Shown: positions 5,112 through 16,581 of the stretch, one piece after another
Layout of the letters: each line of letters starts with the position of its first letter
Position numbering within the stretch: position 1 is the stretch's first letter
Origin: a virus
Direction: 5' to 3' (one strand)
Virus record (IMG/VR): IMGVR_UViG_3300021960_000354
Span: 1 to 29,278 of that record
DNA length: 29,278 nt
Notes under the pieces: model-generated
Database searches by the model: none
Told to the model about the DNA's origin: nothing
What the model saw: the letters and a program-made list of their open reading frames with translations, nothing else
Translations under genes and position numbers: made by a program

Positions 5112-5569
5112 GCTACGATAACCCTTGGACATTCAATGGGAAAAGTTTTAATGATGAAGATGTAGATAAATTTGTTGGTTTTGTTTATCTGATAGTGAAT
5201 CGCATTGAACATAAAAAATACATAGGAAGAAAGTACTTTCATCAAGTCAGAAAGGTAAAAGGAAAAAGTCGCCGTCAAAGGTCTGACAGCGACTGGAAAA
5301 CTTATTACGGTTCTTCTAAGGAACTTCTGAATGATGTAGAACGATTAGGCAAAGAAAACTTTGATAGAGTTATCCTGTCACTGCATGTAACTCGTGGTGA
5401 TACCAACTATGAGGAAGTTAAACAACAGTTTCTATATAATGTTTTAGAAGAATCTGGTTGGTATAATGAAAACATTAATGGTAAGTGGCATCGTAAACCA
5501 GATCATATTGCCGAAGCAAGAGAATTTAATGTTTCTAATCTTTGTTTTCTTGGTTTGACAAAACGCTGA
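5108..5569 (+). CDS. Putative GIY-YIG endonuclease
   Basis: This 153-residue protein carries a degenerate GIY-YIG nuclease core: GFVYLIVN (about residues 24-31) stands for the GIY strand and KKYIGRK (about residues 37-43) for the YIG strand plus the conserved arginine. A YYGSS segment and a KENFDRVIL strand follow as in T4 Seg-like free-standing endonucleases. A glutamate in YEEVKQQFLYN is the candidate metal ligand. The gene overlaps the zinc-ribbon stop by four bases. Its 3' end overlaps the convergent SprT-like gene by 35 bases. It could be a homing-type nuclease or a domesticated repair or packaging nuclease; no intron is visible nearby. Confidence 0.7.
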   Translation: MSYDNPWTFNGKSFNDEDVDKFVGFVYLIVNRIEHKKYIGRKYFHQVRKVKGKSRRQRSDSDWKTYYGSSKELLNDVERLGKENFDRVILSLHVTRGDTNYEEVKQQFLYNVLEESGWYNENINGKWHRKPDHIAEAREFNVSNLCFLGLTKR

Positions 5570-6005
5570 TAACACCAGTTTCAGTTACACACTTTTTAGC
5601 AAGTGGTGTTTGCATTTTGTATGCTTCTTTTTCCCAAGGTTGATCTTCATATTTCGTGTCTATAGGCAACTTCTTACCTTTCCAGACCTGACAATGACCG
5701 CCTCTGTAAATCTCTTTCAATTCACTACGAGCCATCTGTCGCACATGCACCATTTCATGACATATGGTGACAATCATATCAGACATACTTTGTTCAGCTC
5801 TAACTTGAATTTTAAATTCACGCGGTCGAAGATTATCGTCTAACCATTCGCACCAACCATCGGCATCAAGTTTCTTTTTAATTTCAAAATCAATGTCAAT
5901 AACATTTGCGAGTCGTTTACCAAGAACCTCGTCAGCCGCCCATTGAGCTACCTCTTTAACTAGGTGTTTTTGTTTCTTCGTTCCACCAGTTATAGAAATG
6001 TACAT
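5535..6005 (-). CDS. SprT-like zinc metalloprotease
   Basis: The 156-residue protein has the HExxH zinc-protease motif at residues 83-87 (HEMVH) and a downstream histidine at 104 in GGHCQVW that fits the third ligand, as in SprT/Spartan-like domains. Bacterial and eukaryotic relatives cut proteins crosslinked to DNA; SprT-like genes occur in many T4-like marine phages, where the target is unknown. It is the only leftward gene in this part of the window, is expressed from its own sigma70-type promoter just upstream (6036-6064), and converges on the GIY-YIG gene. Confidence 0.75.
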   Translation of the reverse strand: MYISITGGTKKQKHLVKEVAQWAADEVLGKRLANVIDIDFEIKKKLDADGWCEWLDDNLRPREFKIQVRAEQSMSDMIVTICHEMVHVRQMARSELKEIYRGGHCQVWKGKKLPIDTKYEDQPWEKEAYKMQTPLAKKCVTETGVISVLSNQENKD

Positions 6006-12719: not shown

Positions 12720-12746
12720 GGGGGCGAGAAATTGCCCCCTTTTTTT
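12720..12746 (+). terminator. Rho-independent terminator between convergent gp32 and tape measure genes
   Basis: GGGGGC (12720-12725), an 8-base loop and GCCCCC (12734-12739) are followed by seven T. The U run overlaps the stop of the leftward tape measure gene. In the other direction only AAA precedes the stem, so leftward termination would be weaker. Confidence 0.9.
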
Positions 12747-14922
12747 ATTGTCCTGCAGCACCACCGGCAGTCTTTGCTGCGCCTGGTGGATAATTGTAAT
12801 TATAAGTGTTGTAATTGTTTGTAACATTATTTGTTGTACTGTTGTCAGAAGCATTTGTTGGTGCTGATAGTATCGCTGTACCTGCACCGCCTGCACCAGT
12901 GCCAGTTGCATCAGGAACGGCCGCGGCAGGTATTGCTGTTTGTGTTGCAGCAACTTGCATACCTAATGCCGCTTGAATCTTTTGCATTGCAGGCGCAAGT
13001 TCTTCAAGTCTTAATTTAGGATCAAAGACGCCGCCAGAAGGTACATCAATATTACTACTGAACCATCCAGGCATTTTTATTACACCAGAAGCTGCTGTTG
13101 GGAAACCGCCTTGTGCTAAACCTTGTAAAAGAGGCAAAGAACCTGCTATATTTTTACCAAGAGCTTCGAAGTCTAGATCGCCAGCCTTAATTTTAATTTT
13201 ACCAAACGATTCAAGCGCATTGCCAATTTTTGTCAAAGCATCTGCCGCTTTCGTTAGATCATCCGATTTATCAGCTAAAGATAACATTTCTGCAACCGGA
13301 CCTTTGTCGCCAGATAAGAAACCAAGTGCTGCTGATCCAAGATTTTTAAACGCTGACGATAGTTTGTCACCGGCGAAAGTAGATAATGCTTCACCTATGT
13401 CACTCATAGCCTTCTTTAAAGTTTCTGTACCACCAGCATTCTCAGCAAGTGCTGGTATAGACATAAGGGTTTCGACTTCGCTTTTAATTCTTTGAGCGAA
13501 ACCTTGATCGTCTGTAAATTTAGATATTGCGCCTTGTGCACCTGCTGCAATAGCTTCAGCGCCTTTGCCTAAAGAGAACGCAGCAAGACCTGCGCCAATA
13601 CCACCCATTGTAAGAGCAAACCCAGCAACATTTTTTCCTTCTATGCCTGGTAGAGACATAATAGAAAGTAATGTTTCAACTTCACTCTTTACTCTTTCAG
13701 CGAATGGTTTTCCTTCTGTAAAGGATTTAACGCCTGCTTGTCCACCTTCTGCAATAGCTTCTGCGCCTTTACCAATACTAAACGCAACAAGACCGGCACC
13801 AATGCCACCCATTGTTGCAATAAAACTAGCAGCGCCACCAAATCCTGCGTTTTTGTGGTCTAGAATATTAAGTAATGATGTTACTTCTTTGTGTACTCTT
13901 TCGCCAAAACCACCGCCACTAGAAAACTTATCGACATATGCTGCGCCATTTTGTACAACAGCGCCTACACCTTCAACGGCTTTACCTGCGCCAAAAAGTG
14001 CAAGACCAGCGCCAAGTGCGCCCATTACGGTTGGGAATTTAACAACCGCACCAGCTACTGTGCCCCAATTCCAACTGGTTGCCAAATTGACTAATTTTGT
14101 AACATCTGTAACAATGTTATCTACCCAATTACCACCGCCTCCAAACTTTTCTACTGCTGCGTTAATGCCTGCGCCAACACCTGCAACTGCTGAACCTGCA
14201 CCAAATGCAGCAAGACCAGCACCAAGTGCGCCCATTGTGGCAGAAACCCCTGCAACTGCTCCAGCAGTCATATTTGGCAAGTCTGCAATTGATAGTAATT
14301 TTTCTACATTACTTTTAATTCTTTCTGGCCAATTATCACCAGATGTAAATTTAGCAACCGCATCGCCGATACCGGCAATACCACCACCAATACCAAACGC
14401 AGCAAGGCCTACTCCTAATGCGCCCAATGTAAGACCTACGCCAGCAACATTTTTTACTGTCATACCCGGCAGGTCAGCGATTGATAATAATGTACTTACT
14501 TTGCTTTTGATAGCATCAGCATCAAGTGTGAGCATTGATGAAAGTCCCATCAACGCAGCACCACCAAGAGCAGCGAAACCTAATCCTTTACCAATACCAC
14601 TTGCAGCAGCACCAACGCCTGTGCCTACATTTTTTACACCTTCACCTCTAGGACCAGATTGAACAGGCTGTTTGTCTGCTAATGCAGCTGCTGCAGCCTG
14701 TTTACTTGCAATTTCTTTTGCAGCTTCAGCGGCTTTTGTTTGTCCTTCGACTAAGGCTTCTGTTAATTTTATAATATTATTTGATATTTCCATAGAAGTA
14801 TTACGAATAGTATCACTCAAACCTTCTCTTAAAGCTTTGAGAGAGTTACTACCAGTATTCCGCGTTAAATCCCCTTGGTCTTTAAGCGCGTTAATTACTT
14901 CTTGTAAGGTCGTATCAGCCAT
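12745..14922 (-). CDS. 29: Tail tape measure protein with internal repeats
   Basis: A 725-residue protein at the position of T4 gp29, downstream of the gp26 and gp51-like genes. Residues 1-100 are helical and charged. Residues 139-479 hold five repeats of 63-72 residues, each starting with a pattern like IKSxVxTLLSIADLPG (residues 139, 202, 270, 342, 411 and a last partial one at 479) and containing a Gly/Ala core such as GALGAGLAAF. The C-terminus has Ala-, Asn- and Tyr-rich low-complexity sequence. At roughly 0.15 nm per residue it would span about 109 nm, near a T4 tail. The hydrophobic, glycine-rich repeats suit a protein packed inside the tube. Assignment is by position and character, not by sequence match to gp29. 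Confidence 0.75.
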   Translation of the reverse strand: MADTTLQEVINALKDQGDLTRNTGSNSLKALREGLSDTIRNTSMEISNNIIKLTEALVEGQTKAAEAAKEIASKQAAAAALADKQPVQSGPRGEGVKNVGTGVGAAASGIGKGLGFAALGGAALMGLSSMLTLDADAIKSKVSTLLSIADLPGMTVKNVAGVGLTLGALGVGLAAFGIGGGIAGIGDAVAKFTSGDNWPERIKSNVEKLLSIADLPNMTAGAVAGVSATMGALGAGLAAFGAGSAVAGVGAGINAAVEKFGGGGNWVDNIVTDVTKLVNLATSWNWGTVAGAVVKFPTVMGALGAGLALFGAGKAVEGVGAVVQNGAAYVDKFSSGGGFGERVHKEVTSLLNILDHKNAGFGGAASFIATMGGIGAGLVAFSIGKGAEAIAEGGQAGVKSFTEGKPFAERVKSEVETLLSIMSLPGIEGKNVAGFALTMGGIGAGLAAFSLGKGAEAIAAGAQGAISKFTDDQGFAQRIKSEVETLMSIPALAENAGGTETLKKAMSDIGEALSTFAGDKLSSAFKNLGSAALGFLSGDKGPVAEMLSLADKSDDLTKAADALTKIGNALESFGKIKIKAGDLDFEALGKNIAGSLPLLQGLAQGGFPTAASGVIKMPGWFSSNIDVPSGGVFDPKLRLEELAPAMQKIQAALGMQVAATQTAIPAAAVPDATGTGAGGAGTAILSAPTNASDNSTTNNVTNNYNTYNYNYPPGAAKTAGGAAGQ
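13486..14508 (-). repeat. Five tandem protein repeats in the tape measure gene
   Basis: Repeat headers lie at residues 139, 202, 270, 342, 411 and 479, with spacings of 63, 68, 72, 69 and 68. Each unit has a helix (KSxVxxLLSI), a loop and a Gly/Ala hydrophobic core. The fourth and fifth units (GGIGAGLxAFSxGKGAEAIA) are the most alike. Confidence 0.8.
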
Positions 14923-14928
14923 TTAATT

Positions 14929-15102
14929 TCAGAAATTCCTTGTTCGGCGTTCTTTTTCTTCTTCATTATAATTTATTAACATATCCAAATAAAGGTCTCG
15001 TTCAAATGGTATAAGACTTTCAAGTTCAGTTATACTATATTTATGATGATGCACCATTGCAAACATGACTTGATAATAGTTTGTGAGGCTATTATAAGCC
15101 AT
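14929..15102 (-). CDS. 51: gp51-like small tail assembly chaperone ORF
   Basis: A 57-residue protein, MAYNSLTNYYQVMF then HHKYSITELESLIPFERDLY and a charged end. The HKYSxxELExxxPFERDxY pattern is what I associate with the gp51-type hub assembly protein of T4-like phages, though it is far shorter than T4 gp51 (249). It lies between gp26 and the tape measure, where other tailed phages place a frameshifted chaperone. Its ATG comes two bases after the gp26 stop and has no ribosome site at normal distance. A T TTT TTT slippery site just upstream would fuse it in frame to gp26 after a -1 shift. It may therefore be made mostly as a gp26 extension. Confidence 0.7.
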   Translation of the reverse strand: MAYNSLTNYYQVMFAMVHHHKYSITELESLIPFERDLYLDMLINYNEEEKERRTRNF

Positions 15103-15104
15103 GA

Positions 15105-15800
15105 TTAGATAAAAAAACTTGCCAGTCCTTCTACATCAAGACTTTTTTGTTTGCCTGATGCATCTTTATATTTAAGTGTGTGTTTAAGTTTTGGTACTGT
15201 TGCAAAAAATCTTTGCAAGTCTAATGCTGTCTTTGAACTAAGAGAATTTATAAAATCTTCTTGTTCTTGTCGTGTATGTTCTTTCATTAAAACAACTTCA
15301 TCGTCACCGACCAAAACCTTATCAATACAACCACAGATGATATCAGTCATAGCATCATCGTCGCCAATGTTATCGATCAAACTAAGAGAAGGATCTCTCA
15401 TCAAAATTGTTACATCTTTTGATGCTTCAATTTCATACTTATGGTTCTTGTCAAACTGGACAGTTACTTTGTCTAGATCAACAGAAACATCATACTGTTG
15501 TTCATCATCTGGATCAGTAATCTTCAATTCAACAAGATTTGATACTGATTTTGATCTTAGATTTAAAAAGATATATTCAACATCATATGATGCCAAACTA
15601 CCAACATCAAGGTCACCAATGACACAGTTGTTAATAATTTGAATCACGGCCTCTGTAATCTCTTTTGCTTCTCCGCTTTGAAGAGCAACCAAAAGAATTT
15701 TTTCTTCTTTTACAGTAAAAGGACGATATTTAATAGTTTTCTTTTTGTTAGAAGGTAATTCCAACATAAAAGTTGGCGATTCAATTTTAGGCAAAGCCAT
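15105..15800 (-). CDS. 26: Baseplate hub/tail assembly protein gp26
   Basis: A 231-residue protein starting MALPKIESPTFMLELPSNKK with KYRPFTVKEEKILLVALQSG and a C-terminal TRQEQEDFINSL ... LQRFFATVPKLKH segment, the pattern of T4 gp26-like proteins. T4 gp26 (208 residues) is needed for hub assembly. Its place before the gp51-like ORF and the tape measure is like that of tail assembly chaperones in siphophages and Mu/P2-like phages. The gene ends in a T7 run three codons before TAA. It follows gp54 by 19 bases in the leftward operon. Confidence 0.82.
   Translation of the reverse strand: MALPKIESPTFMLELPSNKKKTIKYRPFTVKEEKILLVALQSGEAKEITEAVIQIINNCVIGDLDVGSLASYDVEYIFLNLRSKSVSNLVELKITDPDDEQQYDVSVDLDKVTVQFDKNHKYEIEASKDVTILMRDPSLSLIDNIGDDDAMTDIICGCIDKVLVGDDEVVLMKEHTRQEQEDFINSLSSKTALDLQRFFATVPKLKHTLKYKDASGKQKSLDVEGLASFFI
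15111..15131 (-). promoter_or_regulatory. Candidate -1 frameshift signal (slippery site plus SD-like element)
   Basis: In the gp26 frame the codons read AGT TTT TTT ATC TAA, giving the heptamer T TTT TTT at 15117-15111. GAAGGA (15131-15126) lies eight bases upstream, like the internal Shine-Dalgarno that stimulates shifting in dnaX. A weak stem GGCT/AGCC follows. A -1 shift continues TAT CTA ATC ATG into the gp51-like ORF. Confidence 0.65.
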
Positions 15801-15819: not shown

Positions 15820-16581
15820 TTAAAATGATTTAAGGATTGTACTCACACCAGTTACTTGATTAATTGCGTCTTGAATACCGGTTGGTTTTTTAATTGTGCT
15901 GATAACGCCAGCGATAGAACCAAGTTGAGCAAGTCTTGTAAAGAAACCTATGCCACTTGGTTTGTGTAATCCTGGATTAATGCCATCCAGTTTTCTTGTG
16001 GTATAATATGTATATGTAAATTCTACAGGCAATTTAATTAATGTATCATTTTGTTCCCAACCCATAGAAACAGCACCGACCTGTATTGGAAATGCACCAT
16101 GTAAAGTATATTCGATACCTTGGCCTGTAGAACCTAGATCAGAAAAACCACGAATTACCATTCTCGTTTCATAATCTTCTTTAAAACCAATTTCTCTATG
16201 TTGTCTACCGCCGTCTAGTATCGTGTTTGGACTTTCGTCTGTGCCTTCGATAACATAATCTAACCAAGTCTGAAAGAACTTTAGTATTTTATAGTTACTA
16301 TCAACGAAAAAGGTACATTGCACATTTTCTGAAGCACGAGACATAGGCAGTTTTGTAACATCGCCATAGGCTTGCTTTCTGTAATCAAATGTATTAATAT
16401 TCTTACCTGGCAAGCTTGTTGTGTCGCAGAAGAAAGACAAGTCTTGTGCAGACACGGCTGTTTGACCAGCAAAAGAACGAATCTTAGGTGGTGCGTCACA
16501 CTGTACAAGAAACTTGTTTGCTTGTGCGAGACCTCCGTATCCTTGCATTGTCGATTTAAATGCTTCTACATTAAAAGCCAT
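15820..16581 (-). CDS. 54: Baseplate tail tube initiator gp54
   Basis: A 253-residue protein with the tube-protein fold pattern: NKFLVQCDAPP near the start, FCDTTSLPGKNINTFDYRKQAYGD, VQCTFFVDSNYKILKFFQTWLDYV and a C-terminal YTLHGAFPIQVGAVSMGWEQND beta segment. In T4, gp54 (320 residues) sits on gp48 and starts tube (gp19) polymerisation. It could also be read as a general gp19-like tube protein; the position beside gp26 and the tape measure, in the baseplate cluster, favours gp54. It begins two bases after the gp2-like gene ends. Confidence 0.75.
   Translation of the reverse strand: MAFNVEAFKSTMQGYGGLAQANKFLVQCDAPPKIRSFAGQTAVSAQDLSFFCDTTSLPGKNINTFDYRKQAYGDVTKLPMSRASENVQCTFFVDSNYKILKFFQTWLDYVIEGTDESPNTILDGGRQHREIGFKEDYETRMVIRGFSDLGSTGQGIEYTLHGAFPIQVGAVSMGWEQNDTLIKLPVEFTYTYYTTRKLDGINPGLHKPSGIGFFTRLAQLGSIAGVISTIKKPTGIQDAINQVTGVSTILKSF

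Follow-up and report, generated by a model that had tools for sequence, protein, structure and literature searches.

In phage lambda (G/GT) and phage P2 (E/E+E′), a −1 frameshift near the end of a short gene, at a site flanked by the tail tube and tape measure genes, gives rise to a short and a long form of a tail assembly chaperone (TAC). A −1 frameshift in E. coli dnaX is known to involve three parts, namely an upstream Shine-Dalgarno (SD) sequence, a slippery heptamer and a 3′ stem-loop. The tail assembly chaperones of T4-like phages were identified by Vladimirov, Gautam and Davidson (2022, Virology 566:9-15), a study represented here by papers that cite it (PMC10885494, PMC12846349); these papers state that in some T4-like phages a short TAC gene is accompanied by a long, fused one (PMC10885494), and that the TAC-N genes of T4-like phages are known to contain poly-T −1 frameshift signals (PMC12846349).

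Here, we describe the junction downstream of the gene 26 homologue in a 29,278-nucleotide stretch of viral DNA (IMG/VR virus record IMGVR_UViG_3300021960_000354, positions 1–29,278; hereafter the window), for which an earlier note had proposed a programmed −1 frameshift joining gp26 to a short gp51-like open reading frame (ORF). We conclude that this locus very probably encodes a programmed −1 frameshift making a short chaperone, TAC-N, and an extended one, TAC-NC. Since the chaperones and the poly-T signals had already been reported, the interpretation in the earlier note was right but, going by the passages cited above, published in essence. The window phage is very probably a clear further case of the T4-like short/long chaperone pair described in 2022, sharing the protein family (gp26/gp51) and role of the TAC-N/TAC-NC of that study as relayed by its citing papers. 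The upstream SD-like element, a downstream stem with compensatory changes and an exception among Vibrio phages were not found in the literature consulted, in which the 2022 study figures through its citing papers, and may be new.

Results

A slippery heptamer at the end of gene 26

On the minus strand, the junction reads GTA GAA GGA CTG GCA AGT TTT TTT ATC TAA TC ATG GCT. The gp26 gene (15105–15800, minus strand, 231 amino acids) ends with a TAA stop codon at 15105–15107, just downstream of the slippery heptamer T TTT TTT (15111–15117, minus strand), which lies in a codon phase permitting re-pairing of both Phe-tRNAs after a −1 slip. The slippery site was recognised correctly beforehand; one sense codon stands between the heptamer and TAA. 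As had also been predicted, the −1 frame is open beyond this point (TAC-C; 14929–15117, minus strand), reading FF-YLI-MAYN... through an annotatable ORF of 57 residues (14929–15102, minus strand) to a TGA at 14931–14929, and gp26 together with this extension would form a fusion of 290 residues, in agreement with the length expected. The ATG of the 57-residue ORF (15100–15102), the only one in that downstream ORF, lies 2 nt past the gp26 stop, and no aSD-complementary stretch of at least 4 nt occurs 5–16 nt upstream of it, consistent with the earlier description of an ORF lacking its own ribosome site.

Directly upstream of gp26 is a tail-tube family gene of the gp19/gp54 type (15820–16581, minus strand; PF23849, 3e-11; phrog_45, 1.9e-37). 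Directly downstream is a 725-residue gene (12745–14922, minus strand) that, from its position, length and Ala/Gly-rich repetitive composition, is the probable tape measure gene, so that gene 26 and its extension lie between a tail-tube gene and a probable tape measure gene; the location that the earlier note had stated holds with respect to this probable tape measure gene. The 725-residue protein matched no Pfam, PHROG or NCBIfam family, its N-terminal 70–130 residues match genes at the same place in four related loci (L025, L054, L023 and L043), and in phiM12 a nearby gene is annotated as tape-measure-like. The Ala/Gly-rich repeats of this protein measure very roughly 70–100 residues (LLSIADLPGM...GLGALGAGLAAFG) and, in a self-comparison, are mutually 45–47% identical.

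The slippery run and the frame relation are kept in relatives

Relatives were collected from public phages, which yielded 658 records with a match, the loci of 15 relatives and of T4 being inspected, and from viral contigs, with 173 loci containing a complete junction analysed and grouped at 70% protein identity into 73 clusters. Contigs were searched with peptide patterns lying clear of the junction, so that there was no selection for the slippery run. The heptamer, as T TTT TTC or T TTT TTT, was present in phase in 172 of the 173 loci and in 72 of the 73 clusters, showing that the run and the frame relation are indeed kept in related phages. Past the stop, the −1 frame is open in all 173 loci for 51–73 codons (51–70 codons, median 58, in the 70% clusters), and the +1 frame mostly stops within 10 codons (median 4 in the clusters); a stop-free downstream ORF overlaps the short ORF in −1 in the window and in 172 relatives. 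As in the window, the gp26 stop lies exactly one codon (3 nt) past the heptamer in 50 of 72 clusters. At least 115 of the 173 loci have six T followed by C rather than seven T, and isolate genomes with the same frame break include Aeh1, phiM12, Mendera, LPCS28 and AS-zj.

The heptamer is constrained at the nucleotide level. The codon preceding both Phe codons, which specifies Ser, Asp, Asn, Thr, Ala or His, ends in T in 72/72 clusters (chance about 1e-18.6 over these six amino acids, from the codon use of the same genes), and the first Phe codon is TTT in 72/72 clusters (chance about 1e-12.4; background TTT 67%), values that are indicative rather than exact because the clusters are related by descent. 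Of 16,132 other codon positions in gp26 bodies, 2 have an in-frame T TTT TTY, and just 2 of the 74 other FF pairs in gp26 genes use this context. The arrangement at the junction is far beyond chance.

The −1 extension is conserved straight from the slip, with the pattern FF-xxx-LSHxSLxNYYxxNFALxQHHKYSLTELExMIPWERxIY across 72 clusters, and on these sequence grounds the −1 frame is protein-coding. The 57-residue ORF matches phrog_634 (2.9e-21), with a weak second match to the final portion of phrog_150. No ATG, GTG or TTG occurs among the opening codons of the extension in 38 of 72 clusters, and among the clusters that do have a start codon only 2 show an SD-like stretch, from which it follows that in most lineages the domain would be reachable only via the slip. 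A joined feature or product is annotated in none of the inspected phage-record loci with this layout: the −1 domain is wholly unannotated in the records of Aeh1, LPCS28 and AS-zj (L007, L013 and L182), truncated ORFs beginning inside it are given in four others (L003, L006, L010 and L011), and further records carry a separate CDS.

An upstream SD-like element and a downstream stem-loop flank the heptamer

Eight nucleotides upstream of the heptamer lies an SD-like GAAGGA (15126–15131, minus strand), which the earlier note had likened to the stimulatory SD of dnaX. The element is borne out by comparison, with aSD matches of at least 4 nt found upstream of the heptamer in 89% of clusters versus 31% in the background, and with a spacing to the heptamer of mostly 8–10 nt; GAAGGA is a probable stimulator of the slip.

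Seven nucleotides past the heptamer, the RNA of the window is predicted to fold into a stem-loop (15064–15103, minus strand; folding z −3.15 and −4.16), a feature absent from the account in the earlier note. Its stem comprises 15 base pairs, buries the ATG at 15100–15102 in its 5′ arm and reaches a z of −2.3 against a synonymous-codon null. Across 72 clusters, the 60 nt downstream of the heptamer have a median z of −2.1 versus −0.05 in control stretches (p 4e-15), and against a null in which synonymous codons are resampled with the protein unchanged the median is −2.12 versus −0.08 and −0.24; the commonest position of the first paired base is +7. Two large stem groups have different pairing partners, and both show compensatory changes: group A, with 8 pairs, is 97.4% paired and has 15 double-change cells versus 2.0 after shuffling, and group B, with 11 pairs, is 92.8% paired with 9 such cells versus 1.9, the percentages being biased upwards because the groups were picked by predicted shape, so that it is the double changes that carry weight. 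The stem of the window is a variant outside both groups.

gp26 is predicted to share the fold of tail assembly chaperones

The gp26 protein belongs to PF12322 (2.3e-52; 178.3 bits, against a curated cut-off of 24.5) and phrog_150 (2.9e-58); an NCBIfam search gave no match, and a sequence-based search for relatives of solved structure returned none. An AlphaFold model built on a 39-row alignment has a pLDDT of 94. When this model was compared with 996 PDB chains by VIA-align, residues 1–96 matched 3fgx, 2ob9 and 3klu at Z 7.8, 7.6 and 7.3, with the next chain at 2.9. These three are rbstp2171, the HK97 tail assembly chaperone and YqbN, respectively; a Z under 8 is middling on its own, and what is telling for the modelled fold is the gap to the next chain and the identity of all three. 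gp26 differs from them in having an unmatched second domain of about 130 residues, and the identities are 5–7%. A Foldseek search of the model against the PDB gave no significant match, with 2ob9 present at E 1.9, and it was the VIA-align comparison alone that set the chaperones apart from other chains. Tail assembly chaperones diverge beyond sequence recognition, and an hhalign comparison of gp26 with lambda gpG, for which the template was a single lambda sequence, scored 0.2%.

In BFVD, the model has confident fold matches among uncharacterised proteins of Ralstonia phage phiRSL1 and Bacillus phages SP-15 and BCD7, with further confident matches in Leptospira phage LE4 and Tenacibaculum phage PTm1; judging by the modelled folds, these phage proteins are likely unannotated tail assembly chaperones.

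T4 has a separate gene for each form

In profile comparisons, T4 gp51 residues 8–200 are homologous to gp26 (E 2e-13), and the −1 extension is homologous to the last 45 residues of gp51 (E 3.2e-7), the alignment passing through the junction. T4 gp51 is thus a natural in-frame fusion of a gp26-like domain and a tail, two parts that in the window phage are united solely by the frameshift. T4 gp26, the short form, ends AAA GAG TTC TTT GAG TTA CTA TAA, without a slippery run; with gp26 short only and gp51 fused, T4 makes both forms from two genes. The two systems are therefore alike in having a short form and a long form with the same C-terminal tail, and differ in that the T4 genes lie on opposite strands and have no slippery run. 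In a tree without a fixed root, T4 gp26 and gp51 fall together and apart from all frameshift genes (96/83), a grouping that fits one duplication, although their branches are long. The proposal that gp26 and gp51 are the chaperone pair also stands, having been published in 2022 as relayed by citing papers, but gp51 is the equivalent of the whole long form and not of the 57-residue ORF alone. T4 gp26 also weakly matches the gp28 family (phrog_1140, E 9e-4, residues 32–141); T4 gene 28 lies at 5349–5882 of the T4 locus (L014), and gp28 may be a further relative of the gp26 family.

A Vibrio clade lacks the heptamer

Vibrio phages D495, K474 and K357 (L008, L180 and L181) keep the −1 relation and the coding domain, and the heptamer is absent, replaced by CTTTTC or CTTTTT, with TAATG at the stop (the junction region of D495 lies at 2150–2350 of its locus). 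Stop-start reinitiation may operate in these phages, or else a weaker slip at a single site, and the clade is a candidate for a switch from frameshift to reinitiation. The D495 protein as query against the contigs gave no matches.

Discussion

Taken together, the conserved heptamer and frame relation, the SD-like element, the stem, the TAC fold and the T4 gp51 fusion argue for a −1 frameshift that yields TAC-N and TAC-NC, in the manner of lambda G/GT. The window differs from lambda in its site, T TTT TTY rather than the lambda one, and in the length of its extension, which at about 60 residues is shorter than the lambda T part; with dnaX it shares the three-part layout, but there the heptamer is A AAA AAG instead of a T-run, and the gene and its purpose are unrelated.

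The slip itself, its efficiency and the chaperone action of the products, which we infer from these elements, would unfold as follows. Most ribosomes would stop at TAA and release the 231-residue TAC-N, and a minority would be held up by the internal SD-like element and the stem-loop 7 nt downstream; the two Phe-tRNAs would then slip from AGT TTT TTT to TTT TTT, and continued reading would yield the 290-residue TAC-NC. By analogy with lambda gpG/gpGT, TAC-N would coat the tape measure protein encoded next, and the C-terminal extension would recruit tail-tube subunits.

Other readings of the junction were weighed against this one. With its ATG 2 nt past the stop, the window would permit reinitiation in this phage, the ribosome restarting there (at TAATG or TGATG overlaps elsewhere) and producing a separate 57-residue TAC-C, and a −1-frame ATG near the stop, often overlapping it, is found in 26 of 72 clusters including the window; the Vibrio clade with TAATG and no heptamer, as well as the separate CDS of several records, point the same way. 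We nevertheless consider it very unlikely as the explanation, since a start codon is missing from 38 of 72 clusters, the fixed synonymous sites of the heptamer would be left unexplained, the window ATG has no SD and sits inside the stem, and T4 gp51 shows the fused form to be the working one. Slippage of transcription on the T-run, whereby some mRNAs would gain or lose a base and encode the fused protein, usually needs runs longer than six T; the seven T of the window would suit it, but in most relatives the run is just six T and then C, and the codon phase of the heptamer, the SD-like element and the 7-nt distance to the stem are features of a ribosomal event, so that we regard such slippage as extremely improbable. 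Homopolymers are error-prone and the window comes from an IMG/VR virus record, but a sequencing or assembly error that split one gene in two, to which we assign a negligible probability, is refuted, since 173 independent contigs show the same break, as do isolate genomes.

A further alternative concerns the product rather than the slip, namely that gp26 is a structural baseplate-hub protein to which the frameshift adds a hub domain. The family names of PF12322 and phrog_150 suggest as much, public records still name gp26 and gp51 baseplate hub proteins, and older T4 genetics placed gp26 in the hub (reviewed in PMC3004832). The same review, however, counts both proteins among the hub assembly chaperones and reports that the virion lacks gp51. 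No chain of known structure matches T4 gp26 or gp51 by sequence besides chance zinc-finger matches, and the gp26 model has a TAC fold; a structural hub role is therefore highly unlikely.

Beyond the window, the frameshift may belong to a three-part cassette found across T4-like phages, composed of an SD, T TTT TTY and a stem mostly 4–8 nt downstream, in which the stem would be under selection but rebuilt with other partners by clade, and which some lineages would have left, T4 via duplication and fusion and the Vibrio clade via a stop-start overlap with a free TAC-C. This broader account is tentative, and we would give it slightly less than an even chance.

With more than 170 loci sharing the arrangement, frameshifting is very probably how T4-type phages outside the T4 lineage produce their tail chaperones, and T4 gp26 and gp51, long termed a hub subunit and a catalyst, look like the short and the long chaperone. 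The conserved stem opens the ratio of short to long product to direct mutational tests, and two lineages that have naturally lost the slip show what can replace that ratio.
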